Of a DNA stretch of 64,000 bases, positions 2,868-47,103 are shown piece after piece. Below the pieces are notes generated by a model. It did not search any database. It saw nothing but the letters and a program-made list of their open reading frames with translations, and was not told where the DNA came from. A program made the translations under genes and the position numbers. Source of the stretch: Progne subis subis (Eukaryota > Chordata > Aves > Passeriformes > Hirundinidae); NCBI GenBank assembly GCA_022316685.1, contig JAKJHU010000381.1:62001-126000 (forward strand), given 5' to 3'. How positions within the stretch are numbered: the stretch's first letter is position 1; each line of letters begins with the position of its first letter.

Positions 2868-3222
2868 TGTAGCAGGATTTTTGGAGACAGACACAAAGAG
2901 GCATGACAATTCTGTGAAAGTTCTGTTGTTTTAGCACTGTCAAGGACGTTGAGCCTGAGAACCAGGACACTGAGCCTGAGAACCAGCTTTTTCTCTCAAC
3001 AAAGTGTAAACAGGTAACTGCAAAGGAATGCTTATGCAGACAACACTAGCCAATAGCGAGTAGTAAAATGCTGTGTGAACAGCTTATGCACTAGAACGAT
3101 ATATGTATAAAAGAACCCTGTGTACCCTCAATAAATGGAGCATTCACCACTACTTCTGTGAAGAAGGTGTTTGACTCTGGCTGTTCCCCATGCATTTTTT
3201 TCAAAATCTTCTTCAACAGTCA
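2868..3222 (+). mobile_element. LTR-B copy joining two parts of P1
   Basis: Begins TGTAGCAGGATTTTTGG and ends TCAAAATCTTCTTCA, matching the two LTRs of provirus P3 (reverse strand, 16216-16587 and 22773-23139). The flanks (ACGGAG and ACAGTC) do not match, so this is not a clean solo insertion. It sits between gag-like sequence and the end of RNase H, so it probably marks a deletion or recombination point. Confidence 0.75.
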
Positions 3223-6950: not shown

Positions 6951-7585
6951 TGTCGCAGGCTTTCCCCGACATTCAGGTGGTTTTAGAGTCTTTTTGCCCT
7001 CTGCAAAGCTCTGTGCCAAACGGATGAAGGAGACAGAGTCTTCAGGTTCCGATTTTTCCAGGTTGCATGCTTTGTTTATTGTTTCTTATCTTACAATTTT
7101 CTCAGTGCCCTACAAAGATGTTTGCAGCTGCCTGGACATATGACGACTCCTCCTGGACTGGGCTGTCGCTATCTTTTATACTAATTGCTACGTATTCTTT
7201 ATTTATCATTACTTGCCAATGTCTATCACTAATACTAAAAAGGTCATCCCTACTTTGACCCAGTCTTCTTAAACTACTTTGTGCCAACGTCACTGCAGAA
7301 AATGGAGTGAGGGAAGAAGAAAGAAGAAACAGGAGACAACACCCCAAATTCTCCATCTTGCCCCCATTCACTTCAATGCTAGAAACCTAGATTTACTGTT
7401 TTTTCACCCTGTGATAAGCTAAACTACTATTTTTCACACTCTTGTGGCCTGAAATTCATCTCTCAGTGTTGGAAGCCTCTCCCATGGACTGAGATCAAAG
7501 CCAGTGTCCCTCTGAGCTCTGGGCCGGGGTCCCAGACCCCCCTGTCCAGGTCTCTGACCCTCCAGGGCAGCCAAAGGAATGCCCT
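6951..7585 (-). mobile_element. solo LTR-C in P2, main part (remainder at 15029-15039)
   Basis: The plus strand runs from TGTCGCAGG to GGAATGCCCT; it is the reverse complement of the LTR at 45526-46170. The missing tip GGACTCCAATA is at 15029-15039. The whole is flanked by ATTACT (6945-6950 and 15040-15045), a 6-bp target duplication in P2 RNase H. On its sense strand it has a TATA-like and an AATAAA motif in the usual order. Confidence 0.8.
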
Positions 7586-9300
7586 TGTTGGAGTCCAGCA
7601 AGGAAAGGGAGGTTAGCACAGAGCCAGAAGAGATAGCCATGCTAACTCCAAGATTGACACATCCCCCAGGGGAAAGAGAAGGGGGAGGGGAAAGAACAAA
7701 CGTATCTCAAGGTCCAACAGGAAGCTCGTCAAAAGCCCAAAACTTAATTCCAGGAGAAATAAAGCTTCTGATCCATCCAATAGAGCAGGAGAATCTGGAC
7801 ATGCTTTTCTTTGAAGCAGTCCCAGAACAAACCCCACATTCGCACACGGAGGGGGGGGAAGAAGTCCACCTAGAAGTCCCTTCACCCCCCCAGAATCACC
7901 GCGGCGACAAATGCCTCAGTCGCCACTGCTCCTTTCCCTTCCCGTGGAAAAACCGGGTGCGGGTGGAGAGGATGGGGGGGGGGGGTGAAAGAGCAGGGGC
8001 GAGCGCCATCAGAACCGCGGAGGAGGGGCGAAGCTGTGTGGGAAACCAAGGCTGCGCAGGGAACCGAGGTGGCGGGACGCGACGGGGAGCGATTAGAAGG
8101 CGCGTTGGGAGACAGAGGCGCGGATCGCCGGGAACAGTCCGCGGGGGATGGGGCCGTGGCGGGGGAGGGCTCAAGAACGAGCCGAATACTACACACCCCA
8201 GAAATCCTTGCGGCCGGTCCAGGTGCAGGCGCAACAGGGGCAGGGCAAAGCCCGAGGCACGTTCCTCTTCAGGGAGGGGCTGATTCCGATGACGAAAGAG
8301 ACGGGGCGGACCTTGAACGTGAAATAGGGCGGGGTATCCCGCCGGAGACTGCCGGGCCGAGATCGGCAGGGGTGGGGCCAGCGGAGACGGAGCGGGCAGG
8401 GATGGGGTGTGGCCGAGGCGGGGAGAGTCTCGATGGCACCACCCCCAGGCAGCAGGGGCTGCGGAGCCTGATCACGTCCACCAGCAGCGATGACCCTGAG
8501 CCGCCTGCATGCAGTGATTCAGAGACAGCTGCCGAGGTGTTGCGGATGGGTGCGCGTCCGAAAATATCTCAGATTTTACAGGCTTTTCCAGAACTTAAAA
8601 GATACTTCAGAACTCCGAGCCCGCAGAGAACAGCTGTCAGTGTGCCGACGTCACCGAGGGGCGGAGCAGAGAGGCAGCGAGCACGGAGATCATCAGTCGC
8701 ATCGACTGAAGCATCGGTTTGGGAGGACACCCCCACGCTGCATTGTTTTTTTCCAGTTTCATGTAAAAAAATCAACCTCTCCAGAACAGCGATTCAAACA
8801 GAAGCCGAGAGAACCTTTGCCAATGGTAAGGGATGATGATGTTGTTGATGAGGACCAGGAGATGTCAATCACAGATGAAGATATAATCAGAATCACAGCA
8901 TCAGAGGGGATTCCTGCCAGAAGAGTAAAGGCACTTGAGTTCACAAGGCAAGCTTCATCATTTTTGTTATCTGAGGACTTTATGAACAAGTTTTTTCGCA
9001 GGTTCACTGAAACAGCATTTCGCCACAATCTCACATCTTTCTCTCGAATTTTTCTTTCAGGGACAGATGCTTCAGAAAAATTTGAGGATGTTCAGCAAAC
9101 CCTGATTCCTCTCCAAAGAGAGAAAGAGAGAGAGAAAGAAAGGGAGAAAAAGAGAGAGAAAGAGAGAGAGAAAGAAAGGGAGAAAGAAAGAGAGAAGGAG
9201 AGAGAGAAAGAAAGAGAGAGAGAGAGAAAGAAAGAGAGAAAGAAAGGGAGAAGGAAAAAAGAGAGAAAGGGAAACAGAGAAAGAAACAAAACCTGATGAG
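7586..9300 (+). pseudogene. gag: P4 gag, region upstream of capsid
   Basis: Overlapping open frames (to 8283, 7985-8836 and 8490-9296) suggest one gag N-terminal and linker region broken by frameshifts. The protein is proline-, glycine- and charge-rich, with no clear matrix fold or N-terminal glycine start. 8827-9060 reads as an acidic, helical segment (DEDQEMSITDEDIIRITAS) that leads into the purine repeat and then capsid. Domain identity is inferred only from its position. The very GC-rich stretch 7900-8450 produces many shadow frames. Confidence 0.55.
9110..9290 (+). repeat. purine microsatellite (GAAA/GAGA)n inside gag
   Basis: About 180 bases made almost only of A and G. In the gag frame it encodes alternating Lys/Glu/Arg (KEREKE pattern), predicted to be a long charged helix. 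The reverse complement gives misleading Ser/Leu-rich open frames. Confidence 0.9.
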
Positions 9301-15045: not shown

Positions 15046-16215
15046 GACTTATGAGAGTCTCCGGATAGATCTGTAAAAATGGTTAGAGCTTTTAAGGGCC
15101 TCCTGCTCTGAACATTTTTTAATGACACTTTGAACTGAATTTGTTCACTAAATAATTTGTGAGCAGGCCAATGAATTGAAATTTGATGTGTGTAGCTATC
15201 CAGAGCAAACTGCAAAGCTTAATTTTCATGAATCAGGTGCTCTAACATTGCTTTTGTGATTTGGCCTGAGTTTATCTCAATTGGGATGTGAATACACTCA
15301 AAATCACATCCTGCCAACTCCCTGATCTGAGTCCTGGCTTTCTGGATGAATTCTGCTACCAGTTCCTGTGGCCTGGTCATTCTTTTGGACCAGTGGTGAC
15401 TGAGGAAAACCAACTCTATGATTAAGAGGGGATCCCTACAGTCTTTGTCCTTTTTTGATTTTTCCACTCTTTCCCACTGAAACATCACCCCGTGTAAGTG
15501 TGGAAATTTGCCTAAAATGATGAATTTGAATGGCAAGTCTGATTTGCACCTGTTGGCCTGTCTGGTGGCCATACAGTCCTGTACCTTTTCTAGGGCTGCT
15601 CTTGCCTCTTGGGTGAGGGTCCTAGGAGAACTTAGCTCCTCTCCCCCTTTTAAAAGATTAAAGAGGGAGTCTAGGTCCTCAGTGGTCAGACCTAGTCAAG
15701 GTCTTACCCAATTTAAGGACCCACACAACTGCTGGACATCTGCTAAGGTCCTGATGTTATTTTTGACAACTAATTTTTGCGGCACAATGGTCCGCTTACC
15801 AATCTCCAGACCCAGGTACTTCCAAGGCGGCATCCTTTGAACCTTTTCCTCCTGAAGCTTGAACCCTGCAGCAACCAAAGAATCGATTGTCCGGTCAAGT
15901 GCATGGGACAGTAAGTCATCATTGGGGGCACACATGAGCACATCATCCATGTAGTGCAGGATGATGTCTTCTCCTACAGCTGCACGCACTGGGGACAGCA
16001 GGGAAGAGAGGTACCACTGACAAATAGATGGCGAGTTTTTCATCCCTTGGGGAAGAAATTTCCAGTGGTATCTTTTCCTCGGGGCTTCTCGGTTGAGGGT
16101 AGGAACCAAGAAGGCAAAACTTGGGGCATCGTCACAGTGCAGAGGGATCTGGAAAAAACAATCTTTGATATCAATAATTGCCAAATTCCAATTTTGAGGG
16201 AGCATCGCTGAGGAT
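15046..16215 (-). pseudogene. pol: P2 RT (palm to connection) and start of RNase H
   Basis: Minus-strand RT resumes after provirus P3. It shows NLAIIDIKDCFFQIPLH, KFLPQGMKNSPSICQWYL and LHYMDDVLMCAP (YMDD), then PPWKYLGLEIG and ADVQQLCGSLNW. The connection domain is 15572-15219, and RNase H begins with ALTIFTDLSGDSHKS (first catalytic Asp), cut at 15046 by the LTR-C/P4 insertion. Frames change at about 15700 and 15580. The right edge ATCCTC (16210-16215) is one copy of the target duplication of P3. Confidence 0.86.
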
Positions 16216-16587
16216 TAAAAGGTGATTTTTGAAAAGAAAAAAAAAACCAAAACAAAAACAAAAACACGGGGAACAGCCAGAGTCAAACACCTTCTTCACA
16301 GAAGTAGTGGTGAATGCTCCATTTATTGAGGGTACACAGGGTTCTTTTATACATATATCATTCTTGTGCATAAGCTGTTCACATGGCATTTTACTACTAG
16401 CTATTGGCTAGTGTTATCTGCATAAGCATTCCTTTGCAGTTACCTGTTTACACTTTGTTGAGGGAAAAAGCTGGTTCTGAGGCTCAGTGTCCTGGTTTTC
16501 AGGCTCAACGTCCTTGACAGAGCTAAAACAACAGAATTTTCCCAGCACTGTCAGGCCTCTGTGTCTGTCTCCAAAAATCCTTCTACA
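16216..16587 (-). mobile_element. LTR-B, 3' LTR of P3
   Basis: On the minus strand starts TGTAGAAGGATTTTTGG after a polypurine tract and ends ATCACCTTTTA. It is nearly identical to 22773-23139, including a TATATGTATAAAAGAACCC core promoter and AATAAATGGAGC polyadenylation signal. Confidence 0.9.
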
Positions 16588-16608
16588 ATTCCCCCTTTTT
16601 CTTTTGCA
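16588..16608 (-). promoter_or_regulatory. polypurine tract of P3
   Basis: On the minus strand AAAAGAAAAAGGGGGAAT lies directly before the LTR start. Confidence 0.85.
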
Positions 16609-16612
16609 CAAG

Positions 16613-17864
16613 CTAAGCATTAGATATTGTCTCACGCAATATATTCTTAATACATGACATTACACAACTTAGTATTAATAATCCTAATAATATAAGTAAT
16701 AATATAACAAACATTTAATAACATACTTCAGCTATCTTATAATCTTAAGGCTACTTAACTAATCTTTAAATGCATCATTACTTTCTTTAAAATCACGTAA
16801 TTTGTTCTTCATTAATTGCATTTTTTGTGAATTGATCCAGAATGGTCTGATGGGTTCATGCAACACATTCCTTCAAACTCTTCACACCTATGGTTATGTA
16901 CTAAAAGCAAAAATCAATCACAGCATGGTTTTGTAAAACAGCATAACACTGGTAATATCCACTGATAGCTCATCCAAAATTTGGCTAGTCACATTCAGTT
17001 CCAATTTGGTCCAGTATGCCATCTGCTTTAATGTGGTCATTGCTCTGGCGGCTGTTGCTCCTGGTATAAACATGGATGTTAACACTGTCCTAGCTTGGGA
17101 CTAGAATTTAGGATCTTTTATGTCTGTACTGTCCAACTCATGTATGGCACATTTTCTCTGAGTGGTTTTTGCTAAAGTCATCAATGTGGTTATGTTAGGG
17201 TGAAACAGGGTAAGCTTCCCTAAATAGCATGGGCCCCCATGTGGGCTGGCTGGGACTCTATTCCAAGCGTGGTCCTCACATATCAAAAACGTTACTGGTG
17301 GAAGGCATCGCGCTGGTTTGCAAGTCAAATTACATTTGGAATAAAGTTGTTGGTGAACACTGCCACAAGATAGTCAGGCTGAATTTATTGCAGCCTATTT
17401 CTGGCTATGTATATTTAGGCTCTGCTCTGTGGGTGCTCAAAGGACACCCAACCTCCCTCGCTTCTATTCGTAGAGCTGGCATTCATACATTCAAGGAGGT
17501 CTAATTCTTCAGGTGGTGATGTAGGCGTATCATCAAGTTGCTCTATAATTTTACACTGCCAGCCTCCATCAGCCTGGGTGACTACAAAATCTGATGTCCA
17601 CACTGTGGTGTTTGCCACAGTAAAATTCAGCATTGTCTCATTTTTCACATAACCTTTAGAATTGTAAGGGCTCCAAAGGGGTATTCCTATCAAACAAGTT
17701 CTGAATGGGTCTTGGGGATTGGCCAGGCTAAGGCAAATAGAATCCTGTCCAGTCACATTGGCAAATGTCACCCATACATTAGTTCTCTTAGAAAATTGAT
17801 GAGCTAATTGAGAAGATCTTGCAACACTTGTTGACACCATGAGCAAAAAGCACGCAACACGCAA
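16613..17864 (-). pseudogene. env: P3 env
   Basis: The surface subunit is open from 17864 to 17415: signal peptide RVACFLLMVSTSVARSS, then VWVTFANVTGQDSICLSLA and FRTCLIGIPL, with several N-glycosylation sites (NVT, NET, NTT, NAS). After a stop at 17415 the rest is in pieces. Another frame at 17328-17101 has CEDHAWNRVP and ends KF-stop-SQAR. The transmembrane subunit keeps CEEFEGMCC (16860-16886) and a membrane anchor (FVILLLILLGLLILSCVMSC, near 16650-16740). The first codon is uncertain: the frame is open upstream of a TTG. Same Env type as P4. The gene lies between the zinc-ribbon frame and the polypurine tract. Confidence 0.83.
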
Positions 17865-17884
17865 GAGTGTTTTACCATGCGGAC

Positions 17885-18353
17885 CTACTATATCTCTCTC
17901 TTAATGGCCCACACTGTCTGCGCAAATCTCCAATCTGCTACTCCACCAAAATCGTCAGGAACAGGGTTAGGTATTCTCAAAGCTACCTGTGCTGCTTGAT
18001 AAAAGGCACCAAGGGTGCCACTGTAGCAATGGTCACACAAACCACCTTTATGCCGAAGCTTTAGTGTCTCTCTCTCAAATTGTACACCACAAACTCCACA
18101 TCTCACTTCTATAACTATTACTTCCTGACACTGAGGACACTTTTTCTTGCCACTCATGCAAGTCCTGGGAAAGTTCCATCGATCCCAAGGGGCCTTGGCG
18201 ATCAAAAATGCACGCTACAACCCAGTCTGGGTCAGGAGGGAGTTGTTCACCAGTGGCCTCAACCACCAGCTGTCTCAGCAAGGACTTGATGATCCGTGCT
18301 CTTCTTCCTTCTTTTCCTTCCTTGCTGGTCGAGTCCACTTACTCGGTATCCAT
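17885..18353 (-). pseudogene. zinc-ribbon-like pre-env frame of P3
   Basis: I do not recognise this protein. An ATG at 18353 opens MDTE, then a TAA, then a basic segment (KEGKEGRRARIIKSLLRQL) and EQLPPDPDWVVACIF. After one frameshift near 18208 the second part has four Cys pairs or knuckles in order CPQC, CGVC, then H and CDHC, resembling a zinc ribbon or double zinc finger, and ends at about 17888, 24 bases before the env frame. CGAGTAAGT, a good splice donor, overlaps its start. By position it could be an accessory protein or a long Env leader. It is absent between integrase and env in P4. Confidence 0.5.
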
Positions 18354-18754
18354 TCTGGCCCAGATGCAAAGTTCAAATGCTTGGGTGCAGCTGTTGTCGA
18401 ATTCGCCTCAGAGGTGTCCTGATCGCTGACCAGCAGGTTTCAGAGTCACAGATTCCAGGGCCCTTGGAGATCTGTCAATCTGGGACGAATTTGAGATCAG
18501 CTGCTCTGGCCAGAAGTGTTCCTCTTATCTTCTCCGGAGCTGATCATCTGGCTTTTTATCTTCAGAGGGATTGCAGTGTTCACTGCATGCAGAAGGCTTA
18601 CTGTGACCCTGTTCAGCATGAAACCGCTTTGTCAGCAATGCATAAGTAAAAACCACCCCAGCTTGGCTCTTACTTGGCAGCTGCTGCAGCCACAAAACTT
18701 AGTAAGATATCTTTGGGTTTTCACCAGCTTAAGTCTTTAGGAAATAAATTCCAA
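18354..18754 (-). other. P3 non-coding, possible CEPT1 3' UTR or viral splice region
   Basis: No coding motif is seen. Sequence between the solo LTR-K and the pre-env frame. It could be distal CEPT1 3' UTR passing into viral pre-env sequence; the junction cannot be placed by eye. Confidence 0.35.
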
Positions 18755-18760
18755 GTGGAC

Positions 18761-19449
18761 TGTAGTGGTGTGAGAGTTGTTTTATTAAGTTATTAAGTTA
18801 TTTTTGTAAGATTTTTGAGTTATTTTGGTAATGGTTTAGTCCACTGTACCCCCCTGTGTTTTGTAATAGTTTTCCCCCTCATGAGTTAGGTATTTAAGTA
18901 GATGTTTTCTGCCAATCATTCCTTCCCTGCACCTGTCCCTGTCAGTTTCCCCCCCTCTCCTCGTGGTCGCCCTGTCTGTCACTTCGAGACCCTTCCCTGG
19001 ATTCTGGAAAGATCCAGGAGAGGTGTCGAGTGGTAGGCTGGTGCCCGGGGAATCCCCTCCTACCCTTCTGTGATTTGTTAATGGTTCAAAGGTTGACACC
19101 CCTGTTACCACCCCTGTGTTCCCTGGTTGGCTGACCCATTGTCAGCCCTCCTCCGTTTATAAGTGGCTGTCAAGCTTTGATCTCTGCTCTCTCTGGGCAG
19201 CAGTGGTCTGAGGCAGAGCTCCTTGCTGGACTCCCCTTAATAAACTACCTTCTACCCTGCCTAAAGAGAGACGACTCTTTTTCTGTAGCCGCAGTTGCAA
19301 CTCCATCTGGTCCACTCGCTGGTGTGGGGAACCAAGAGCCCACCAGGAGGAGGTTACTCACCCTGCCTGTAACCCCAACCGATCCTCGCTGTGGCAGTGC
19401 AGAACTGTGCTAGCCTGCACGCCTGGAGGCGTGAGAGGACACTGCTATA
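18761..19449 (+). mobile_element. solo LTR-K in P3
   Basis: Runs TGTAGTGG to CTGCTATA, with duplicated GTGGAC outside (18755-18760 and 19450-19455). It has a TTATAAG box at 19158 and AATAAA at 19239, so it reads on the plus strand. The usual final CA has become TA. Confidence 0.85.
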
Positions 19450-19455
19450 GTGGAC

Positions 19456-19836
19456 AATAAACAAGTATTTCACTAAGAGATGATGAAATGTTAAAATTAA
19501 AAGCAAGTCAGATTGCAGCTGTAATTATACTATATTAGAAACTCCAGCTGGTGGGGATCCATTCACCATATAGAGAGAAATTAGTAATCAAGGTAATTAC
19601 AAAGACAGAGCATTTGCTTCCTGCATGCTTTTCCAGGCTTGGAATCAACAGAGTTGACTACACGGAGAGTTGACTAGGGTGAACTCAGAATTCACTCTCT
19701 CAGGCAGGAGACTAGTTAAGAAGTGCTTCTGATAACAAAGAAGAAAAGTTATACAACATTGATTATTATAAATTACTTTGTTCTCATCTGCTTTTAGCAT
19801 TTGTCTCTTACAAGTCTTCATCCATTCCTGTAGAAA
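19456..19836 (-). other. apparent 3' UTR of the captured CEPT1
   Basis: AT-rich, without a coding frame, lying 3' of the CEPT1 stop once LTR-C (19843-20488) is removed. Assignment as CEPT1 3' UTR is inferred from position alone. Confidence 0.4.
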
Positions 19837-19842
19837 CCTAAC

Positions 19843-20488
19843 TCTCTGTTTTTAGTTCCGAGATTCAGGTGGTTTTAGAGTCTTTTTGCCTTCTGCAAAG
19901 CTCTGAGCCAGACGTAAAAAAGAGACAGAGTCTTCAGGTTCTGATTTTTCAAGGTTGCGCGCTTTGTTTATTGTTTCTTATTTTACAATTTTCTCAGTGC
20001 CCAACAAAGGTCTGTGCAGCTGCTCGGGCATCTGTTGACTTCTCCTGGACTGGGCTGTCGCTATCTTTTATACTAATTGTTACATGTTTTTTATTTATCA
20101 TTATTTGCCAATACCTATCACTTATACTAAAAAGGTCATCCCTACTTTGACCCAATCTCTTGAAACTACTTTGTGCCACCATGACTGCAGAAAATGGAGT
20201 GAGGGAGGAAGAGAGAAGAAGCAGGAGACAACGCCCCAAATCCTCCATCTTGCTCCCATTCACTTCCATACTAAAAACCCAAACCTACTGTTTTCTCACA
20301 CTGTGATAAGCTAAACTACTATTTTTCACACTCCAGTGGCTTGCAATCCTTCCCGCAGTGCAGGAAGCCTTTCCCATGGACTGGGATCAAAGCCAATGTC
20401 CCTCTGGGCTCTGGGTCAGGGTCCCAGACCCCCCTGTCCAGGTCTCTGACCCTCCAGGGCAGCCAAAGGAATGCCCTAGACTCCAACA
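19843..20488 (-). mobile_element. solo LTR-C in P3
   Basis: Minus-strand start TGTTGGAGTCTAGGGC. CCTAAC is duplicated (19837-19842 and 20489-20494), so the LTR end is ACAGAGA rather than CA. It matches 45526-46170 and 6951-7585. Confidence 0.82.
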
Positions 20489-20494
20489 CCTAAC

Positions 20495-21455
20495 TTCTTT
20501 TTCCATTCCTCTGTGGCAGCTCCCATCCCTAGTGATGGTTCGAGTGCATGGGGCAGCCCTTGATGTGGAACACGTGGATGTGCAGGTGGGCAGCAATTCT
20601 GGCTGCACACGCTGACACAGTATCGGAGCAGGTTAAACAGGGATGGGATCAGGGCAATCCAGAGGACAATATACTTATAAATAAAGCTGTTAAAACACTC
20701 GTCAAGGCACAGCAATTCTGGGCCTATTAATGCTGTGTCATATAGATACATCTCACTTTTGGTCATGTGGGCAACCACCAGTTGATTTGTGATCTTGGCA
20801 GACACAAAGCTAAAAGTCAGGATGTAGAGGCAGAGATGCCTCTCAAAGAGCTGCACAGCAAATTTCTTGCAGATCATTGCAGCCAGGGCAATCATGGAGC
20901 CAATATGGAGAAAAGGTGAGAGGACACTTGTTCCTGCTAAAGTCAATCCATTTTTTGCCAACTGCACCTGAATGTTCAGTCTTGGAATCAGGGATTGCTA
21001 AAAAGGTGGTCCTCTAATCACTGCTAGCAAATACATGATTATTATGATTTGTATTTCAGTCACATCAATCATGCCGAAGCTCAGCGTTCCTGAGACATAC
21101 ATCTGTCAGTGTGCACAGTAAAACATGAATGCCACACCAAAACAGCAGAAGAACATCCAATCAGGGTTGGTGTCCAGCTGCACAGCAATATAAGTTTCTA
21201 AAACCACAAAGACTGTGGACAATGAATCACAGCTATGATCAAAAAGCTCTCTTAACGGAGTGCTGCTATTTGTCCTTCTTGCTTGTTTTCCATCTGTAGC
21301 ATCCAGGGACTGGAATGCCACAGGCACAAGCAATGAACGTCCAGGGAGGTGCCTGCCTTTGAAGCTGTTGAGCGGTAACATACTAATAATAGTGTTGTAA
21401 ATATATTTATTAACAGTTCAGTGATGATGATCAGATTGGGGGCAATCCAGGCTGG
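20495..21455 (-). pseudogene. CEPT1: captured CEPT1 cDNA fused to P3 gag
   Basis: Intronless copy of the C-terminal three quarters of choline/ethanolamine phosphotransferase 1, an ER/nuclear membrane enzyme that transfers phosphocholine or phosphoethanolamine to diacylglycerol. It begins at PAWIAPNL in the same open frame as viral capsid. The CDP-alcohol phosphotransferase motif is readable at ~21303-21226: [17 protein letters not shown], then R where G is expected, then ELFDHSCD. Further matches: [48 protein letters not shown]. About 27 codons are missing before GTSVLS. Frameshifts (near 21380 and 20600) and two in-frame stops (near 21105 and 21000) inactivate it. The native end (HSNHH, stop) is at about 20534. 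CHPT1 is a weaker match. Confidence 0.88.
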
Positions 21456-22475
21456 AGAATTGATATCTGCAGTATGAATCCAATCTAACGTTGCTGGAGC
21501 AGTTTCAGATTTCAAGCCATGCTCTTTTACTGTATTTTTTGCCTGTTGCAAGATTTTTCCATTCATGCTGCTCACACACAGGATTACCATCTCTGAACAT
21601 GACAGGACATGCTACAGGACATGCCATGTGTCCTGTGGGTTCCCACTGTCCTTCTAGTATAACATCACGTATAATTCCGGACCATCGAGTCACAGGGGGG
21701 TTAGGCGAAGGCGTTGCAAGGGAACTGCTTTGTGCAGTTTGTTCTAGCAATTGTTGCATTGGAGTTAACTGGGAGCTAAACGATGTCGGCTCCTCCTGAT
21801 TTTTAGCATTTGTTGTATATAGTTCCTGGGCTTTTTCCAGCAGCAGCTTAGTTGCTGCATGCTCTCGCTCATTCAGGCGCTGCATCACTTCCTGAATCTG
21901 ATCAGTCAGTTCCTTTAAACCAATCGTGGGTTCTGCCAGGGGTTCTGCTCCATCATTGGGGTCCTTCTCTAATTCATCCGGCAGCAGAACACTGTCGGGG
22001 GAAGGTGGTCGACAGCAGGGGTCACCAGTTCCCCTGTCTTAGTCGACGGGTGTCTCTTCGGGCACAGCCGAGAAAGGGGGGGCAGTCGGCACATGCGTTG
22101 TGGGACCAGCGGCGCTGGGAGCAGCAGCGGAGCGGGGGGGCAGTGGGGACCCCCGGGGGCTGCTTCCTCCTCGTCCTGCCTGTTACTGAGCGGTGGCAGG
22201 GGTGGCGGCGCTCAGACGACGGGGAACGGTCCACAGGCCGGGAGCAGCAAGCCAGGCATCGGCCAGCAACGGTGCCGGGGCACCGGAGGCGGGCGAAGGG
22301 CACCACAGGGGCCCCACGGCACCTCCCCGACTTCGCAGCGTCGGGGGGTTGTTAAACGTCCATTTCCCTGCGCCCAGTTAATCAGCTTTTGCAGTACTTT
22401 TTCTGCTACTGTTTTTCCTCTCTCAGAGAGTATAATAATAAATAACTTCAATGTGGCAGCAAATTTGCATTCCAT
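21456..22475 (-). pseudogene. gag: P3 gag: matrix, linker and capsid N-terminus
   Basis: A likely start is the ATG at 22475 (MECKFAATLKLF), leading to a matrix-like helix (GKTVAEKVLQKLINWAQ). A GC-rich linker (22330-22030) follows in broken frames. 21888-21505 then reads a coiled region (EREHAATKLLLEKAQEL), a proline-containing stretch and WSGIIRDVILEGQWEP, the latter typical of the matrix-capsid junction region. After one frame change, capsid starts (KNTVKEHGLKSETAPATLDWIH) and runs without a break into CEPT1 at about 21456. Most of capsid, the nucleocapsid, and all pro and pol are absent. Confidence 0.8.
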
Positions 22476-22752
22476 GCTTGCCGTCGTCAATGGGACAGGG
22501 AAGTGAAGACTCAGAGCCTTCCACCTTTTTTCAAGAAAACTGCCCCCTGTTCCCCTTACCAGCTCAGCCTCGCACTCTATTTGCAAGGATGGTGAGCTTC
22601 TGCCTCTGCTGATGCATCTCTTGGCAGATCAGCGTCTGACTGCTATTTTCCGGAGGGTCTCACCTCAATGCAGCTGCATCTGTCGGCGAGTTCAGCGTCC
22701 AACCGTTCAGCGTCCCACCGCTAATTTTCTCCTCCAGGTCATCACCCCAAGG
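22476..22752 (-). other. P3 leader with likely packaging region
   Basis: Non-coding sequence between primer site and gag start, with a repeated GACGCTGAAC element (22690-22720). No splice donor was chosen with confidence. Confidence 0.45.
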
Positions 22753-22770
22753 TCCGAAGTTCGGGCACCA
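22753..22770 (-). promoter_or_regulatory. primer-binding site of P3
   Basis: Minus strand TGGTGCCCGAACTTCGGA, 2 bases after the LTR end. The first 12 bases resemble lysine-tRNA sites; the rest does not, so the tRNA is not assigned. Confidence 0.65.
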
Positions 22771-22772
22771 AT

Positions 22773-23139
22773 TGAAGGTGATTTTTGAAAAGAAAAACAA
22801 AACCAAAACAAAAACACAGGGAACAGCCAGAGTCAAACACCTTCTTCACAGAAGTAGTGGTGAATGCTCCATTTATTGAGGGTACACAGGGTTCTTTTAT
22901 ACATATATCATTCTAGTGCACAAGCTGTCCACACGGCATTTTACTACTCGCTATTGGCTAGTGTTGTCTGCATAAGCATTCCTTTGCAGTTACCTGTTTA
23001 CACTTTGTTGAGAGAAAAAGCTGGTTCTCAGGCTCAGTGTCCTGGTTCTCAGGCTCAACGTCCTTGACAGTGCTAAAACAACAGAACTTTCCCAGCACTG
23101 TCAGGCCTCTCTATGTCTGTCTCCAAAAATCCTGCTACA
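22773..23139 (-). mobile_element. LTR-B, 5' LTR of P3
   Basis: Minus-strand TGTAGCAGG to ACCTTCA. Inserted in P2's RT just after the MPSP codons, where the other half of RT resumes at 16215. Confidence 0.9.
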
Positions 23140-24020
23140 GGGGATGGCATCCCTGGTTGGAGAGAACCCATGTCCTCAATGACATTATTAATTTGACGAA
23201 GATCGTGAAGGAGCCGCCACTTGACTTTGTTTGCCTTTTTTATAACAAAGACTGGGGAATTCCACGGAGACGGGGTTTCCACAATGTGGCCTTTAGCTAG
23301 CTGTTCATCCACTAGCTCCTGAAGTGCCTTCAATTTTTCTTTACTGAGCGGCCACTGCTCTACCCAGACTGGTGAATCAGTTTTCCAATTGAGTTTCTGG
23401 GTAGGGTGCTCTTCAGTGGCCGCAGCCTGAAAAACCAGGGGGGCATCTGGAATGCCAATCGTGACCCCCCACTGGGCCATCAGGTCTCTCCCCCACAAGG
23501 GCTCTGAATAATCTAAAACAAATGGATGCAGTGTAGCCAACTGTCTGTTTGGCCCCTTAATTTGCACAACACTTTTTGACTGTTTTGCCCATTTCATCCC
23601 CCCTACACCTTCTACGTGCCCAGCCACATTTTGCAGTTCCCAATGCGAAGACCACATCCTTTCTGGTATAATCGTTATATCCGCGCCTTTGTCCAAAACC
23701 CCTTTGAGGCTTACTACTTCCTCACCGTGATGGACCTCACACCATATTATGAGTTTGTCTCTCCCAATAACTCGTGTGGGGCAAACATCAAGGTGTTTGT
23801 TCCTTGTGATGTCTTTTTCAGGGAACAGGTCAGGTGCTGGAATTGCCTGAGCTATTATCTGCCCCTTAGGCAGAAACAAGGGTGGGCGGACACAGTGCAG
23901 CCAGAGAACTAGTTGTTTAGGGTTTGATGAGGCAGGACCCAGAAGGATCTTGACCTCTCTCTGTGTGTACTTGGTGTCCCCAAGGATGACATACTTACTG
24001 CCAACATGTTACCAGGAGCC
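23140..24020 (-). pseudogene. pol: P2 dUTPase-like end, protease and RT N-terminus
   Basis: Open from 23879 to LTR-B. It reads [14 protein letters not shown] (end of dUTPase-like domain), then protease with [14 protein letters not shown], where Lys replaces the Thr of the DTG active-site triplet. [12 protein letters not shown] closes the protease. RT begins [20 protein letters not shown] and [20 protein letters not shown] and stops at MPSP, where P3 is inserted. Protease and RT share one frame here, although they are normally separated by a frameshift. Confidence 0.85.
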
Positions 24021-40347: not shown

Positions 40348-42321
40348 ATGATACAATTTTGCATGATAGAATGGGCAGAGAAGGAAATAAGACCTGACCA
40401 CTTTTATTGGCCCAGATATGGCTCTTTTGAGAATTGGATTTGTCAGGCTATAAATGCATTTGTAAATTCAAAGGAACCGTTTAATCCCGAAGAAAGAGAA
40501 TATGCCACATGTTGGACAGGAGATTTTAGGAGAATAAAAATCTTTCACGTATCAGAAACGCCCGAGATGAAACAAGAAAAGAAAAAGGGGAAAGAAAAGG
40601 GAGGGGAACAAGAAGAAAAGAAGGAAAAAGAGTGGGATCCTTTGCAGGCTTTGCCCCCTCCGTTCCCACTCGCGCTCCCGCTGTTCACGGTCGAGCCCCC
40701 TGTCCCGGGTCCCGCTTCAGTCCCGCCTGCCCCGGTTCCCGTCCCGAGTGCGGGCTCGCAGCCCGCAGCAGCTGCGCCGGTCCCCGCATACACCCCATCC
40801 CCGGCCCCGCTGGTGAATTTGTCTGCCCCGGCTGCCTGGCCCGCGGCCGCCCTAAGGGCCGTGCCGGGGGTCCCTCCTGACGCGTGGTCTAAGACCACTG
40901 CCCCGACCGTGCCGGGGGTCCCGTCGGTCCCAGTCATCCTATCTCCAATCGCTTCCCCCACTGCCCGATCCCCGGCTGCCCTGCCCGTGCCAGCTGCGCT
41001 GGGCGCTGCTGCTGCTGCTTTGTCTCTGCCGGGAGCCACTGACTCAGCCACCATTAGCCCTGTGCAGGCTATCCACGCTCCCCTCTGGTATCCCCAAGAA
41101 CTGGCCCCTCCTCTGCTGGTCCCGGCAGCAAACCCTGCCTATGCTCCGCCCTTGGAGGACCAAGCCTTGGCGCTATGCCCTCCCCTCACCCCTCTTCCTG
41201 CCCTGAGCTCCGTTCCCTCGGTAACCACAGCTACTGCTCAGAGAAACGATTTCTCCCTAGAGATGCCTTATCGAAACACTAGAAGTTCAGTTACAAGACA
41301 GCCCTCTCTGGATTCTTTCTCAAAACACAGGAAAAAGACAACAGAGGATAAAAAACAAAAATGGGATAAAGAAATTAGTCTATTTCCACTAAAAGAAGTC
41401 CCAATGGGAGGGGGTGGAACAGGGTTTGTAAATGCCCCTTTGACTTCTTCTGTGGTCAGAAATTTTAAAAAAGAAATCAAAGGAATTTTAGAAGATCCCA
41501 TAGGCACAGCTGAACAATTAGACCAATTTTTAGGTCCGAATATTTATACTTGGGAAGAGATGCAGTCTATAATGAAAATAATATTTTTTCAGGAAGAAAG
41601 GCAATTAATCAGAGCAGCTGGAATAAAAGTTTGTGAAAAAGAGAACCCACAGGGCCCCCCCGGAGAAGACAAAATGCCAACTGCGCCTCCTGAGTGGGGT
41701 CAAAATAATGAGGAGGGGAGGAAACACATGAATGAATATCGTAATTTAATAATCAAGGGAATAGAAGAGGCAGCGCCCCGAGGGCAAAACGCTAAAAAAG
41801 CTTTTGAGGCACAGCAAGAAAAAGAAGAATCTCCAAATGAATGGTTGGACAGACTTAAGAGAAATATGAAACAATATTCCGGAATAGACCCTGAAACTGA
41901 TGTGGGAAAAGCTTTGTTAAGGATTAACTTTGTTACTAATGCCTGGCCAGATATTAGAAAAAAATTAGAAAAAATTGAGGATTGGCATAATAAATCATTA
42001 GATGACTTATTAAAGGAGGCTCAGAAAGTTTATGTCCGAAGAGATGAAGAGAAAGCTAAACTGAAAGCAAAACTTATGGCAGTCACCATGCGAGAAAACA
42101 ATTTCCAAAAAAATCAAAAACATACAGGCACTACTTCTAGATATAAAATTAGTAGAGACAGGGGAAAGGAAAAGAATAGAATCCCAATACAAACCAAGTC
42201 TCAGCAGCATTCCAGGAATGTCTGCTTTTACTGTGGGGGCGAGGGACATTATAGGAGAAATTGTCCTAAGCAGGTAATAGATCTGAAAATCTTCAAAGAG
42301 ATGAGCACAGAGGAAGAATAG
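40348..42321 (+). CDS. gag: P5 Gag polyprotein
   Basis: 657 codons, open. Residues 1-75: matrix (IEWAEKEIRPDHFYWPRYGSFENW). Residues ~75-95: Lys/Glu-rich. Residues ~95-310: proline/alanine-rich linker encoded by very GC-rich DNA (40640-41240). Capsid then follows (TSSVVRNFKKEIKGILEDP, YTWEEMQSIMKIIFFQEER), with a major-homology-like segment around residue 490-515 (EESPNEWLDRLKRNMKQYSG). One zinc knuckle CFYCGGEGHYRRNC at ~625-638. It ends in TAG. The N-terminal glycine for myristoylation is lost (see leader). Gag would form the particle shell; length is in the normal range for the genus. Confidence 0.92.
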   Translation: MIQFCMIEWAEKEIRPDHFYWPRYGSFENWICQAINAFVNSKEPFNPEEREYATCWTGDFRRIKIFHVSETPEMKQEKKKGKEKGGEQEEKKEKEWDPLQALPPPFPLALPLFTVEPPVPGPASVPPAPVPVPSAGSQPAAAAPVPAYTPSPAPLVNLSAPAAWPAAALRAVPGVPPDAWSKTTAPTVPGVPSVPVILSPIASPTARSPAALPVPAALGAAAAALSLPGATDSATISPVQAIHAPLWYPQELAPPLLVPAANPAYAPPLEDQALALCPPLTPLPALSSVPSVTTATAQRNDFSLEMPYRNTRSSVTRQPSLDSFSKHRKKTTEDKKQKWDKEISLFPLKEVPMGGGGTGFVNAPLTSSVVRNFKKEIKGILEDPIGTAEQLDQFLGPNIYTWEEMQSIMKIIFFQEERQLIRAAGIKVCEKENPQGPPGEDKMPTAPPEWGQNNEEGRKHMNEYRNLIIKGIEEAAPRGQNAKKAFEAQQEKEESPNEWLDRLKRNMKQYSGIDPETDVGKALLRINFVTNAWPDIRKKLEKIEDWHNKSLDDLLKEAQKVYVRRDEEKAKLKAKLMAVTMRENNFQKNQKHTGTTSRYKISRDRGKEKNRIPIQTKSQQHSRNVCFYCGGEGHYRRNCPKQVIDLKIFKEMSTEEE

Positions 42322-42335
42322 GGAGGTCAAAGGCT
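42319..42335 (+). promoter_or_regulatory. gag-pol stop-codon readthrough site
   Basis: TAG followed by GGAGGTCA, the same immediate 3' context as the murine leukaemia virus readthrough site. Pol continues in the same frame. A downstream pseudoknot would be expected but was not worked out. Confidence 0.75.
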
Positions 42336-42570
42336 CTATTTTTTAGGGGACAAATACCATCTAGAGCCTGTGATAACTCTAAAAGTGAGTCCCCAAGAAG
42401 AAGAATTAGAATTTGTGGTAGATACAGGGGCAGAAAGAACCTGCCTGCTAAATGTACCAAAAGGCTGTGGTGTGAGTAAGGATACTGCAAAAGTAACAGG
42501 GGCAAAAGCATAAACTTTTACAGTTCCAGTCATTAAAGATGTAGTAATTGAAGGGGAAACTAAAATTTGG
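42322..42570 (+). pseudogene. pro: P5 protease
   Basis: In frame with gag: LEPVITLKVSPQEEELEFVVDTGAERTCLLN has the DTGA active site. A TAA at 42511-42513 interrupts it 25 codons later. The rest (MGYVLLVPKAGSNLLGRDLQVKLGI) is at the start of the following open frame. This is the only stop between gag and the integrase. Confidence 0.88.
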
Positions 42571-45525
42571 ATGGGATATGTCTTATTGGTCCCAAAGGCA
42601 GGTAGCAACTTACTAGGAAGAGACTTACAAGTGAAATTAGGAATAGGGGTTATACCAGAAGATGGGAAAATGACAGCTAAAGTCTTAAAATTAGGCCAAG
42701 AGGATGAAGAAAAAATTAACAAGGAAGTTTGGGCTGGGGAAGGAAATAGGGGAGGATTAAATATTGACCCTATAAGTGTTACAATAGAGAGAGAAGATTG
42801 TCCCATACGTGTACATCAATACCCCATATCTTTAGAAGGACGGGAAGGTTTGAAGCCAGTAATAGAAGGACTAATAAAGGATGGGACACTAGAACCTTGC
42901 ATGTCTCCCCATAATACCCCTATTCTCCCAGTAAAGAAACCTGATGGGAGTTATAGACTAGTACAAGATTTAAGGGAGGTTAACAAAAGAACTCGGTCTC
43001 GTTACCCAGTGGTACCCAATCCCTATACACTTCTAAGTAAAGTTCCACCCCAGCATCAGTGGTTTAGTGTAGTGGATCTTAAAGATGCTTTTTTGGCCTG
43101 TCCACTAGCTAAGGAGAGCCGAGATATCTTTGCCTTTGAATGGGAGGATCCAAAAACTGGAAGAAAGCAGCAATTAAGATGGATGAAATTACCGCAGGGC
43201 TTCACAGAGTCTCCAAACTTATTTGGGCAAGCTTTAGAAAAAATACTACAAGTCTTCTCCACCCCTCCTAGAATACAAATTATCCAATATGTGGATGATC
43301 TACTATCCGGGGAAGATGAAGTTGAAGTTAGCGAAGCTACAATAAAACTTTTCAATTTTCTTGGAGAAAAAGGATTAAGGGTATCAAAAGGGAAACTGCA
43401 ATTTGTAGAACAAGAGGTGAAATATCTTAGACACTTGATAAGTAAGGGTAGTCGAAGGCTCAATCCAGAGAGAATTGCAGGAATTTTATCCCTTCCACCT
43501 CCCTCTTCAAAGAGGGAAATCAGAAAACTACTCGGATTATTGGGATATTGTAGATTATGGATTGAGGGGTACACACAGGCAGTAAAATTTTTGTATGAGA
43601 AATTGACAGAGGGAGATAATATAAAATGGACCAAGGAAGATGATGATAAATTAGAAAAATTGAAGTTAAAACTGGCCTCAATACCAACTTTAAGCTTACC
43701 TTCACTAGAAAAACCCTTTCATCTGTATGTGAATGTGGAAAAGGGGGTAGCTCATGGAGTTCTAGTCCAGGAGAGGGGAGGAGTAAAGAGACCAGTAGCT
43801 TATTTATCAAAGATGTTGGACCCAGTGAGCCACGGCTGGCCAGTATGTATTCAAGCTATAGCCGCTACTGCAATCCTGGTAGAAGAAAGTCGTAAATTTA
43901 CTTTTGGAGGTAAACTAATTGTGTGCACACCTCATGCAGTTCGAAATGTGTTAAATCAGAAAGCTGAAAAATGGTTGACAGACTCTAGAATGTTAAAATA
44001 TGAAGCAATCTTGATAGATAGTGATGATCTGACATTAGAAGTAAACGGGAGTTTAAATCCAGCTCAATTCCTATATGGAGAACCAGCAGTTAACCTAATA
44101 CATAACTGTTTAGAAATTATCCAATACCAAACAAAATTTCGAGGGGATCTTGAAGAACAAGCCCTTTCAGAAAGGGAAATAATCTATGTGGGTGGTTCCT
44201 CCAGATGTCTACAAAGAAAAAGAATGTCAGGGTATGCAGTAGTTGATGGAAAAAACATGCAAACTATTGAAAAAGGAAAATTACCTTCAAACTGGTCAGC
44301 TCAAACTTGTGAATTATATGCTCTAAAAAAGGCACTGGAATATTTAGCACACAAGAAAGGAACTATATATACTGATTCGAGGTATGCTTTTGGAGTAGTA
44401 CATACTTTTGGAAAAATTTGGGAAGAAAGAGGGTTACTTAACTCAAGAGGAGAAGGATTAGTACATGAAGGACTCATTTTAGAGATTTTAGAGCCATTAA
44501 AACTACCTGAGGAAATAGCTATAGTACACATTAAGGGACACCAAAGAGGAGTGACCCCAGAAATAAGAGGAAATAATTTAGCAGATCAGGAAGCTAAGGA
44601 TGCAGCAGAAAATGGAGCTGAAAGAGTTATGTTAATATTAACTCCAAATGAGGAAAAAATGGAAATCCCAAAGTTTAGTGAAGCAGAGAAAAAAGAATTA
44701 AACAAGATAGGAAGAAAACAGGCTGAATCAGGGAAATGGAAACTTCCTGATGGAAGACAATTACTTAATAAAATACTGTCTAGAAAAATATTAGAAGATA
44801 TGCATCAGAAAACCCACTGGGGTACTCAGGCCTTGTGTGATCATTTTTTAAGGAACTATGGATGCACTGGGATTTTTGGAGTAGCAAAGCAAGTAACTGA
44901 AAAATGTATAACTTGCCAAAGGATAAACAAAAAGGTGATGAGAAAAACAACATTAGGAGGTCGTGAGTTAGCTCTTCGACCATTTCAAAGTATCCAAGTA
45001 GATTTTACTGAACTTCCTCAAGTACAAAGATGGAAGTATTTATTAGTAATGACAGACCATCTAACTCATTGGGTAGAAGCAGTTCCCACTACCAAGGCCT
45101 CAGCCAACATAGTAAGTAAAACCCTTTTAGAACAGATTATTCCCAGATACGGAATGGTTAATAGAATAGGCTCAGACAAAGGAATGCATTTTACATCAAA
45201 AGTGTTACAACAGCTAATTCAATCTTTAGGGATAAAATGGGAGCTGCATACTCCATGGCATCCACAGAGTTCTGGTCGTGTAGAAAGGATGAACCAGACT
45301 TTAAAGAGAACTTTGACCAAATTAATAGTTGAAAAGCAAATGTCATGGGTACAATGCCTACCTTTGGCCTTACTGAGGATCCAAACACAACCCAGGTCAG
45401 ACCTGGGAGTGTCACCCTATGAAAGGATGTTTGAGTTACCCTTTTTAACCACCCAACATGAAAATGCTACCTATGAGGTAGGGGAAATGAGTATTAAAAG
45501 ATACGTTAACACCATTGCGAAAACT
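42571..45525 (+). CDS. pol: P5 Pol: protease tail, RT, RNase H and integrase core
   Basis: One open frame up to the LTR-C insertion (nominally to 45570). RT: DLREVNKRTRSRYPVVPNPY, VVDLKDAFLACPL (Asp), LPQGFTESPNLF, IQYVDDLLSG (YVDD at residues 240-243). RNase H: YVGGSS at ~539-544, so the first catalytic Asp is Gly; CELYALKKAL (Glu), YTDSRYAFGVV (Asp) and ADQEAKDAA (Asp) are kept. Integrase: H-x3-H and CITC zinc site (THWG...CITCQR), VDFTELPQ (Asp), GSDKGMHFTS (Asp; Lys where Asn is usual), HPQSSGRVERMNQTLK (Glu). The frame is among the best preserved in the window. The ATG at 42571 is internal to the polyprotein, not a start. Confidence 0.93.
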
Positions 45526-46170
45526 TGTTGGAGTCCAGGGCATTCCTTTGGCTGCCCTGGGGGGTCATAGACCTGGACAGGGGGGTCTGGGACCCTGGCC
45601 CAGAGCTCAGAGGGACACTGGCTTTGATCTCAGTCCATGGGAGAGTCTTCCAACACTGAGAGATGAATTTCAGGCCACAAAAGTGTGAAAAATAGTAGTT
45701 TAGCTTATCATAGGGTGAAAAAACAGTAAATCTAGGTTTCTAGCATTGAAGTGAATGGGGGCAAGATGGAGAATTTGGGGCGTTGTCTCCTGCTTCTTCC
45801 TTCTTCTTCCCTCACTCCATTTCAGCAGTGACATTGGCACAAAGTAGTTTAAGAAGATTGGGTCAAAGTAGGGATGACCTATTTAGTATTAGTGATAGGC
45901 ATTGGCAAGTAATGATAAATAAAGAATACGTAGCAATTAGTATAAAAGATAACGACAGCCCAGTTCGGGGGGAGTCGTCAGATGTCCAGGCAGCTGCAAA
46001 CATCTTTGTTGGGCACTGAGAAAATTGTAAGATAAGAAACAATAAACGAAGCATGCAACCTGGAAAAATCGGAACCTGAAGACACCGTCTCCTTCATCTG
46101 TTTGGCACAGAGCTTTGCAGAGGGCAAAAAGACTCTAAAACCACCTGAATGTCAGGGAAAGCCCATGACA
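45526..46170 (+). mobile_element. solo LTR-C in P5 integrase
   Basis: TGTTGGAGTCC to GCCCATGACA, flanked by AAAACT (45520-45525 and 46171-46176). It has TATAAAAGATA (45942) and AATAAACG (46042), fixing its direction. The insertion with duplication (651 bp) is a multiple of three, so the pol phase is kept downstream. Confidence 0.92.
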
Positions 46171-46176
46171 AAAACT

Positions 46177-46527
46177 CTTGAAAACCTACAGTTGAATGGA
46201 ATAATCCCTCAAACCACACCTTGAGACTTTAAAATCCATAATGTTCATCCAGGGGAATGGGTGCTAGTAAAAACCTGGAAAGAACAATCTTTAACTCCTC
46301 AATGGGAAGGTCCTTTTCAGGTATTGCTGACGACCGAGGCTGCGATCCGGACCAAGGAACAAGGGTGGATCCACGCCAGCCGAATCAAAGGACCTGTGGA
46401 TGAACCTAAGGAGTGGACGATTGCATCTGAACCGGGTGATACAAAACTGACTCTTAAACGGGGACTGGGTGGTAATGAACTGGGAAGACCCAAATGGTCC
46501 CAGAAATATACCCAGGATCACACCTAA
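46177..46527 (+). pseudogene. pol: P5 integrase C-terminal domain
   Basis: Continues pol after LTR-C. A TGA at 46222-46224 lies between the core and the DNA-binding domain, which reads HPGEWVLVKTWKEQSLTPQWEGPFQVLLTT and GWIHASRIKGPV, a typical gammaretroviral integrase tail. It ends at 46527 and overlaps the next frame (from 46469) by about 60 bases. Confidence 0.88.
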
Positions 46528-46954
46528 TTGGGAGATAAGGCCAAGCTTATATCAGTGGTTTCAAGTACTGCCTGGACAAGCTTTGAGACGTCTCAGATAC
46601 CCTCCCTGGGAAGGAATACTTCCACTCCAAACAGGAGGATCAGGACTGTTTTGGACAGAGAACTCTTGTATTCACACCTTAGCCTGTGATTTATGCAAAG
46701 AGGAAGAGGAGTTGCAACTTCCATCAGTGCCAGACCAAATACCCTGTTTGATCCACCCAAATAACAGACATGCTAACTGGGTTAAATGTAAATGTTTAGA
46801 TTGTGGGAAGAATTGGTATTGTAGGTCACACAAGCGACGCTCTCGTTGCAGGAAGTGTCAAGGGCCAAATCAATCTCCTATCCAGGTAGAACTCGAAGAA
46901 ACCGAAATAATAACTTTGTTTTGTGGATGGAAATTATTAGTGCCTGTTGAATAG
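46469..46954 (+). CDS. P5 Cys/Arg-rich pre-env frame, function unknown
   Basis: 161-codon open frame overlapping the end of pol and ending 150 bases before env. I do not recognise it. The C-terminal half is dense in Cys/His: CIHTLACDLC, then H in HPNNRHANW, CKCLDC, CRSH and CRKC; a basic run (RSHKRRSRCRK) lies among them. That combination is common in small nucleic-acid-binding regulators, but no homology is claimed. The N-terminal half is aromatic/proline-rich (YQWFQVLPG, RYPPWEGILP). It could instead be upstream Env coding sequence or a chance frame; conservation would decide. Confidence 0.5.
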   Translation: MVMNWEDPNGPRNIPRITPNWEIRPSLYQWFQVLPGQALRRLRYPPWEGILPLQTGGSGLFWTENSCIHTLACDLCKEEEELQLPSVPDQIPCLIHPNNRHANWVKCKCLDCGKNWYCRSHKRRSRCRKCQGPNQSPIQVELEETEIITLFCGWKLLVPVE

Positions 46955-47103
46955 GAGATACCTGAAGAACAGTGGGAAACGACAGTTAAGGAGTGTCAAA
47001 AACGATTTGCCTGGAAATTAGCTAAGAGGAAGTGACAAAGGAATAGAGGGCAAGACCAGATTAGCCTCTGTATTCGCCACCAAGAAGATCAAATACACCT
47101 GCT
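46955..47103 (+). other. P5 spacer between pre-env frame and env
   Basis: The reading phase of the Cys/Arg-rich frame continues past a TAG with EIPEEQWETTVKECQKRFAWKLAKR, so that frame may once have been longer. A splice acceptor for env mRNA is expected here but not fixed. Confidence 0.35.

Follow-up and report, generated by a model that had tools for sequence, protein, structure and literature searches.

An avian endogenous retrovirus family carrying CEPT1 in place of pol, with a probable origin in one capture of a spliced, polyadenylated host mRNA

Introduction

Most of what is known about gene capture by retroviruses comes from tumour viruses, in which the cargo was found because it had been selected. 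The acute oncogene-type transducing retroviruses, such as MC29 with gag-myc and Fujinami with gag-fps, are replication-defective, and poly(A) remnants are found at the 3' joints of some viruses of this type. In this regard, one locus of Progne subis subis raises the question of how CEPT1, by homology a phospholipid enzyme and here truncated, came to follow a retroviral capsid frame. The locus lies in the window that we analysed, a stretch of 64,000 nucleotides (GCA_022316685.1, contig JAKJHU010000381.1, positions 62,001 to 126,000 of the forward strand). A first-pass annotation, made from the letters alone, had read it as the uptake of a host cDNA by a single provirus in the form of an in-frame Gag fusion. 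Here, we compared the window copy with the native gene, with related copies in the same genome and with gene models of Hirundo rustica.

Results

Layout of the CEPT1-bearing provirus

The CEPT1 sequence lies in a minus-strand provirus at 16219-23139 of the window, which is nested inside the reverse-transcriptase region of another endogenous retrovirus (ERV); pol of the outer ERV was found on both sides, with RVP in 23073-23879 and RT in 15696-16205. The 5' LTR (22775-23139) and the 3' LTR (16219-16587), both on the minus strand, are identical at 349 of 371 positions by blastn, with a K2P distance of 0.043 over 363 aligned sites. Directly inside the 5' LTR, within the approximate limits 22750-22774 (minus strand), is the primer binding site region, of the tRNA-Lys3 type, where the window copy has TGGTGCCCGAACTTCGG. 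This site varies among L009-L028, where a TGGCGCCCGAACAGGG type occurs beside TGGTGCCCGAACTTCGG and TGGCACTGAACATCGG types, and it reads TGGCGCCCGAACAGGG(G/A)C in L010, L022 and L025. These differences may reflect several tRNA primers inside one family.

Leader and the 5' part of gag follow at 22000-22774 (minus strand), a region matched upstream of the capsid in all 20 fetched copies, and then the N-terminal part of the gag capsid (21457-21999, minus strand), which is severed at the CEPT1 joint. The PF00607 profile scored 16.7 bits (E 0.0069) in the window copy, under the cut-off of 24, and 25.4 bits, over the cut-off, in copy L018. An open reading frame at 21252-21590 of the minus strand passes from Gag p24-like sequence into CEPT1 with an in-frame join at 21456. 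The coding cDNA at 20529-21456 (minus strand) corresponds to native mRNA nt 237-1251 less a 75-nt deletion in the window copy, and its native stop triplet is at 20529-20531. The cDNA had been thought to end at that stop; it runs on instead for about 580 nt through the CEPT1 3'UTR to 18595, broken by two later inserts. The three 3'UTR pieces, all on the minus strand, lie at 20502-20528 (aligned through native mRNA nt 1278), at 19449-19844 (nt 1283-1676, 93.9% identity to the native gene) and at 18595-18760 (nt 1670-1834).

The first insert (19845-20501) holds a solo-LTR-like repeat of another family at 19858-20488. This 630-bp repeat, one copy of which sits directly past the CEPT1 stop, is found in the window also at 6966-7585 and 45526-46163, and outside it in loci L027, L037 and L044. 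The second insert (18761-19448, about 690 bp) is absent from the other copies, which go from mid 409 to mid 1098.

Beyond the 3'UTR comes a 228-nt stretch at 18367-18594, which we call segment X, and then viral sequence past integrase at 17870-18366, made up of the end of pol and a Cys-rich reading frame, with an 88% match to L044, a relative that carries no CEPT1. The env remnant (16588-17869) reaches the 3' LTR and was recognised by env matches, with PF03708 (Avian_gp85) in copy L018; all three parts are on the minus strand. Elsewhere in the window, a further LTR of the same family lies at 2868-3201, on the strand opposite to the provirus LTRs, and a second ERV occupies 40348-49631 of the plus strand; its long open frames are gag-like (657 residues) and pol-like (999 residues), and it has pieces that resemble env. 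Judged by eye only, this second ERV is gammaretrovirus-like.

CEPT1 as the source of the insert

The first-pass annotation had named CEPT1 and suggested an alignment with both CEPT1 and CHPT1; our comparison of the two came out for CEPT1: the two larger pieces of the window copy scored 121.7 and 193.5 bits against human CEPT1, versus 99.2 and 144.9 bits against CHPT1. The host's own CEPT1, at G000:C1358, has eight coding exons with 1251 bases and 416 residues, of which 372 are identical to human CEPT1 (the human sequence as typed); its exons were found in L029, L031 and L043. A CHPT1-like exon, a name that rests on its weaker match, is on C1335. The window copy is 91.7% identical to the native gene over 929 coding bases.

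All seven native introns are missing from the captured form. The exon joints are gap-free in 22 of 22 compared copies, except for one joint that is so in 21 of 22, which bears out the earlier remark that the insert has no introns. The accompanying claim of one open frame held in part: the capsid does enter CEPT1 in frame, but it does not stay open as far as the native stop codon, since the window copy has two premature stops and four frameshifting indels.

A family of copies with the same joint

The window copy is one of many, and the picture of a single event in one provirus had to be given up. We searched the window's own genome with a 75-residue query across the Gag-CEPT1 joint; among the best 150 rows out of 251 candidates, 136 span the joint (counted by eye) and the remaining 14 stop near it or cover one side. 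A search with the CEPT1 piece gave 394 candidates, of which the best 150 were scored, some rows being pieces of one copy. A number of the contigs with matches seem to be duplicates. We fetched 20 copies, each with at most 9.9 kb of sequence, L022 and L028 being shortened by contig ends. The 22 copies compared below were chosen largely for likeness to the window copy, and they amount to about 20 independent sequences because L008/L015 and L010/L025 are near-identical pairs.

The order leader, gag, CEPT1 was found in 20 of 20 fetched copies, with a 5' LTR match in 19 (absent in L014). Env follows CEPT1 in the window copy and in 15 of the 20; the other five stretches end or are rearranged before it. 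In L010 and L025 (about 7400-7800) the leader recurs after a second LTR, as in tandem proviruses with a common LTR.

Hirundo rustica accounted for 24 of the 43 matches in a protein search, and its gene models P0009 and P0010 contain both PF00607 and PF01066. Going by these two models, the CEPT1-element family appears to be present in Hirundo rustica as well. P0009 has no exact match in the window's genome, the best being 96% over residues 1-189, so that it comes from another assembly. In two further Hirundo rustica models, P0005 and P0006, gag is joined straight to a later part of CEPT1, as either a deletion subfamily or a model artefact would give. Many of the copies sit on small contigs, as might be expected if an assembly error had joined CEPT1 to ERV sequence. 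However, the joint recurs on many contigs, some of many megabases (C1335, C1113, C2354), as well as in the Hirundo rustica models with P0009 from a different assembly, and we regard such an artefact as hardly conceivable.

The 5' joint between gag and CEPT1

Alignment to the native mRNA begins at nt 236/237 in 21 of the 22 copies and at nt 244 in L014. No other 5' joint was seen among these 22, the genome rows having been ranked by likeness to the known joint. Seven fetched gag copies without CEPT1 (L033-L039) match the captured form as far as the joint and diverge from there on. Just beyond it, four of the seven carry TGGATTG(C), which is present in CEPT1 too; it appears with a single change in L035 and L038, and in L037 the alignment stops at the joint. 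The short common sequence can be read by setting the captured form AATTCTCCAGCCTGGATTGC beside the uncaptured gag of L033, AATTCTCC-GC-TGGATTGC, and the native gene, GAGTTCCAGCCTGGATTGC. A Hirundo rustica Gag without CEPT1 (P0002) runs on as normal capsid, with 113.6 bits to PF00607.

Loss of pol and integration of the whole element

L044, the relative without CEPT1, has reverse transcriptase, RNase H and integrase immediately ahead of the Cys-rich frame, env and an LTR that belongs to the CEPT1-element family. The gag of L035, an adjacent stretch on the same contig and strand, probably belongs to the provirus of L044. Among the CEPT1-bearing loci, 16 of 21 could be assessed because the fetched stretch includes env, and none of the 16 has same-strand pol-like sequence between CEPT1 and env; the pol-like matches in the loci are on the opposite strand or outside the LTRs. 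Since pol precedes env in L044 and is found in none of the 16, we infer that the capture removed the rest of the capsid, of gag and of pol, the very end of pol being regained in type II, the form to which the window copy belongs.

LTR pairs were found in 13 of 21 loci, of which 12 are datable, L012 with 27 aligned sites being left out. Outer flanks could be compared by eye in eight loci. The 6-bp target duplication round the whole element is perfect in L017, L020, L027 and, on the assumption that its first LTR base has mutated, L026; it matches at five of six positions in L011 and in the window copy, and is absent in L019 and L028. In the window copy the flanks are ATCCCC and ATCCTC, and they match at five of six bases when the 3' LTR is extended by one base beyond its end in most copies.

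Two forms of the 3' joint

Three copies, which we call type I, retain the CEPT1 3'UTR to nt 1882 (L012), nt 1912 (L016) and nt 1917 (L023), with an AATAAA signal in L016 and L023. In all three the 3'UTR gives way to an A-rich tract, which includes some G in L023, and this tract leads directly into env. At the corresponding position the uncaptured L044 has ATTAAAAAGGGGATATGG, from which it appears that the poly(A) tail met an A5 run there. The absence of poly(A) noted earlier is thus true of the window copy and untrue of these early relatives. A 72-nt stretch near the 3'UTR end has 22 genome matches, namely the native gene and 21 others; 20 of these 21 tails are within 250 bp of a same-strand env match by eye, the exception being C536. 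About 21 detectable type I tails are left, the poly(A) tract itself being seen in the three copies that were read and the other 18 resting on match positions.

In 14 of the 22 copies, including the window copy, the 3'UTR stops at nt 1834 and segment X comes next, which is the type II form. In L018 segment X leads to the integrase end, the Cys-rich frame and env. Where the segment occurs in other type II copies, it is 92-96% alike to that of L018; it has no long open frame, and among the loci read it occurs in type II copies only. No source for it was found among all fetched loci or in the genome, where 40 of 247 candidates were scored. Five copies (L008, L013, L015, L021 and L022) break off earlier in the 3'UTR. 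Type II is likely to be the bulk of the family.

The type I copies bear directly on whether a LINE (CR1) made a processed CEPT1 pseudogene that landed by chance in a provirus which then multiplied. Early copies with a poly(A) tract, two of them after AATAAA, and a 5'-truncated, intron-free cDNA are what LINE products look like. However, the cDNA has capsid on its left and env on its right, with pol between them in the relative, so the viral flanks are non-contiguous and two events would be required, an insertion and a separate loss of pol. The longest word common to the two viral flanks in L012, L016 and L023 is five bases and not at their ends, and the poly(A) meets the virus at the A5 run. 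A poly(A) tail together with a target duplication round the cDNA had been named as the sign of independent insertion; the three type I copies have the poly(A), and a duplication in a contiguous target was not found there. A LINE origin, already thought less likely in the first-pass annotation, is contradicted by the flanks, and we consider it very unlikely.

Type I as the probable older form

In the tree of the CEPT1 region, the native gene, L023, L016 and L012 are split from all type II copies with a support of 0.966, and the native gene, L023 and L016 form a split with a support of 1.000. Type I would be the older form, because the poly(A) form cannot come from the nt-1834 form without regaining 3'UTR. 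Two distinct 3' ends, at nt 1834 and at poly(A), might suggest that related viruses captured CEPT1 mRNA several times independently. Against this stand the identical 5' joint in types I and II, a premature stop common to 22 of 22 copies with further changes common across the types, and the ladder-like tree, in which type I stands between the native gene and type II. Independent captures are therefore extremely unlikely, and a single capture remains our reading.

LTR divergence in the 12 datable copies ranges from 0.026 to 0.119. Songbird substitution rates are 2-3.5e-9 per site and year, at which the insertions would be, very roughly, 4-30 million years old. In L023, half the LTR divergence is 0.045 (156 sites only), compared with 0.043 for the whole CEPT1 branch; the two being about equal, L023 was probably inserted soon after the capture.

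The CEPT1 frame is broken in all compared copies

The premature stop common to all 22 copies is at native codon 235 of 416, so that the native protein loses 44% of its length; upstream of this stop lies the CDP-alcohol motif, at native residues 136-158. A second, earlier premature stop is common to 19 of 19 type II copies. Most type II copies also have frame-breaking changes in common, and other changes are common to types I and II.

We counted nonsynonymous and synonymous changes (N/S) at coding positions covered by at least 15 copies. In the absence of selection the expected N/S is 2.4-2.9 for transition weights from 6 to 2, and 3.3 with none. Type II gave 102/34 for shared changes, a class somewhat inflated by the near-identical pairs, and 163/57 for singletons, and CEPT1 in this form shows no purifying selection. 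Type I singletons gave 42/19, or 2.21. Early changes, that is, those on the stem or common to types I and II, gave 41/26 versus 163/57 for type II singletons (Fisher p = 0.046); with the stem left out they gave 38/21 (p = 0.145). The low early N/S is a weak signal, which would be compatible with a short phase of selection early on and to which the host's own branch also contributes.

These counts bear on whether the captured CEPT1 was of use to the virus as a protein, be it as a lipid enzyme or in a membrane-anchored Gag-CEPT1(80-234) fusion, and was selected before type II expanded. The in-frame join, the two-domain gene models of Hirundo rustica, the lower N/S of the early changes and of type I singletons, and the position of the CDP-alcohol motif before the common stop would all fit such a use. 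On the other side, the common stop removes 44% of the protein in all 22 copies, and type II has a broken frame and no deficit of protein-changing substitutions. We think selection for a useful protein improbable. The earlier suggestion that the virus put a phospholipid-synthesis enzyme to use is in any case not supported, because the premature stop is common to all 22 copies and purifying selection is lacking in the later form.

Another way in which the CEPT1 segment could have aided spread is as a truncated membrane-anchored Gag-CEPT1 fusion in type I or, once the frame was gone, as RNA in small-RNA or microRNA cross-talk with the host gene, many copies being 91-95% alike to the host CEPT1 coding sequence and having its 3'UTR. 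We give this little credence too. Most likely the CEPT1 insert travelled as a passenger, and we read the cargo as truncated at or soon after capture and as unnecessary for later amplification.

Proposed origin of the element

The common 5' joint, the poly(A)-env joint, the position of pol before env in the relative and the short matches at both joints argue for one retroviral capture and not for a LINE pseudogene. Very probably, one capture of spliced, polyadenylated CEPT1 mRNA replaced pol, and type II descended from type I. The central proposal of the first-pass annotation, capture by a retrovirus as an in-frame Gag fusion, is thus upheld by the two joints, the replaced pol, the LTR pairs and, in several copies, the 6-bp duplications round the whole element.

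In this scheme an avian endogenous retrovirus would have taken up the CEPT1 mRNA of its host during reverse transcription. Minus-strand synthesis may have switched from the viral RNA near the start of env, where the relative has the A5 run, to the CEPT1 mRNA at its poly(A) tail. It would next have run through the 3'UTR and the coding sequence as far as codon 80, and then switched back into the capsid at the short match between gag and CEPT1. The presumed product had, between its two LTRs, gag as far as the CA N-terminus, then CEPT1 with its 3'UTR and poly(A), and then env, and had lost the remaining gag and pol. Such a chimera would be mobile only with Gag-Pol supplied in trans, and a helper seems probable because pol is absent from the element and a pol-bearing relative is present. 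One type I descendant may later have recombined again within the 3'UTR, at nt 1834, and so given rise to type II, losing the poly(A) and gaining segment X together with the end of pol and the stretch that had been missing before env. Type II would then have multiplied, and it apparently accounts for most copies, including that of the window. In the common ancestor of the compared copies a stop already cut the CEPT1 frame short, and the frame was later lost altogether.

Discussion

The element resembles the acute oncogene retroviruses in its in-frame joint in gag, its origin from spliced host mRNA, the loss of pol, the partly kept env and the need for a helper. It differs from them in carrying a housekeeping lipid enzyme instead of a growth gene, in its many germline copies and in having no good sign of selection on the cargo.

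ERV lineages holding captured host mRNA are known from crocodilians as well. The available part of that account (PMC4299795) describes captured KIT-ligand and nectin3 mRNAs, nectin3 having been gained at the cost of env, with intact open reading frames under purifying selection, no complete nectin3 frame in A. sinensis and six nectin3 insertions in A. mississippiensis. Compared with the cases in that part of the source, the CEPT1 element has its cargo broken in all 22 compared copies and free of visible purifying selection in type II, has pol and not env replaced, and has at least 136 joint-spanning rows versus the six nectin3 insertions (PMC4299795). The switches proposed here are like those of LTR-mediated retroposition and maize Bs1, for which the portion available (PMC5408686) describes switching between packaged mRNA and element RNA templates at short similarities, by which host sequence enters element cDNA. 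Set beside these, the CEPT1 chimera retained its cis signals and grew into a mobile family that has subfamilies, which is not to imply that the elements in that portion of the source (PMC5408686) did not.

We found no publication on a captured CEPT1 in an ERV in the open-access literature searched. The mechanism is of a known kind, and the CEPT1 cargo and the preserved joints are without precedent in that literature. The element stands out by what it carries and by the broken state of that cargo, by having pol replaced, by a poly(A) joint that has survived and by the size of its family.

For annotators the family carries a warning, as the Hirundo rustica Gag-CEPT1 models P0009 and P0010 look like pieces of it. 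For the biology of retroviruses, it is a germline record of a captured housekeeping gene that was stopped early and then drifted, in which both original joints, including the poly(A), are still legible in old copies. Such a record allows one to ask how often retroviruses take up arbitrary mRNAs, and it suggests that a chimera of this kind can grow into a large mobile family without a working cargo.
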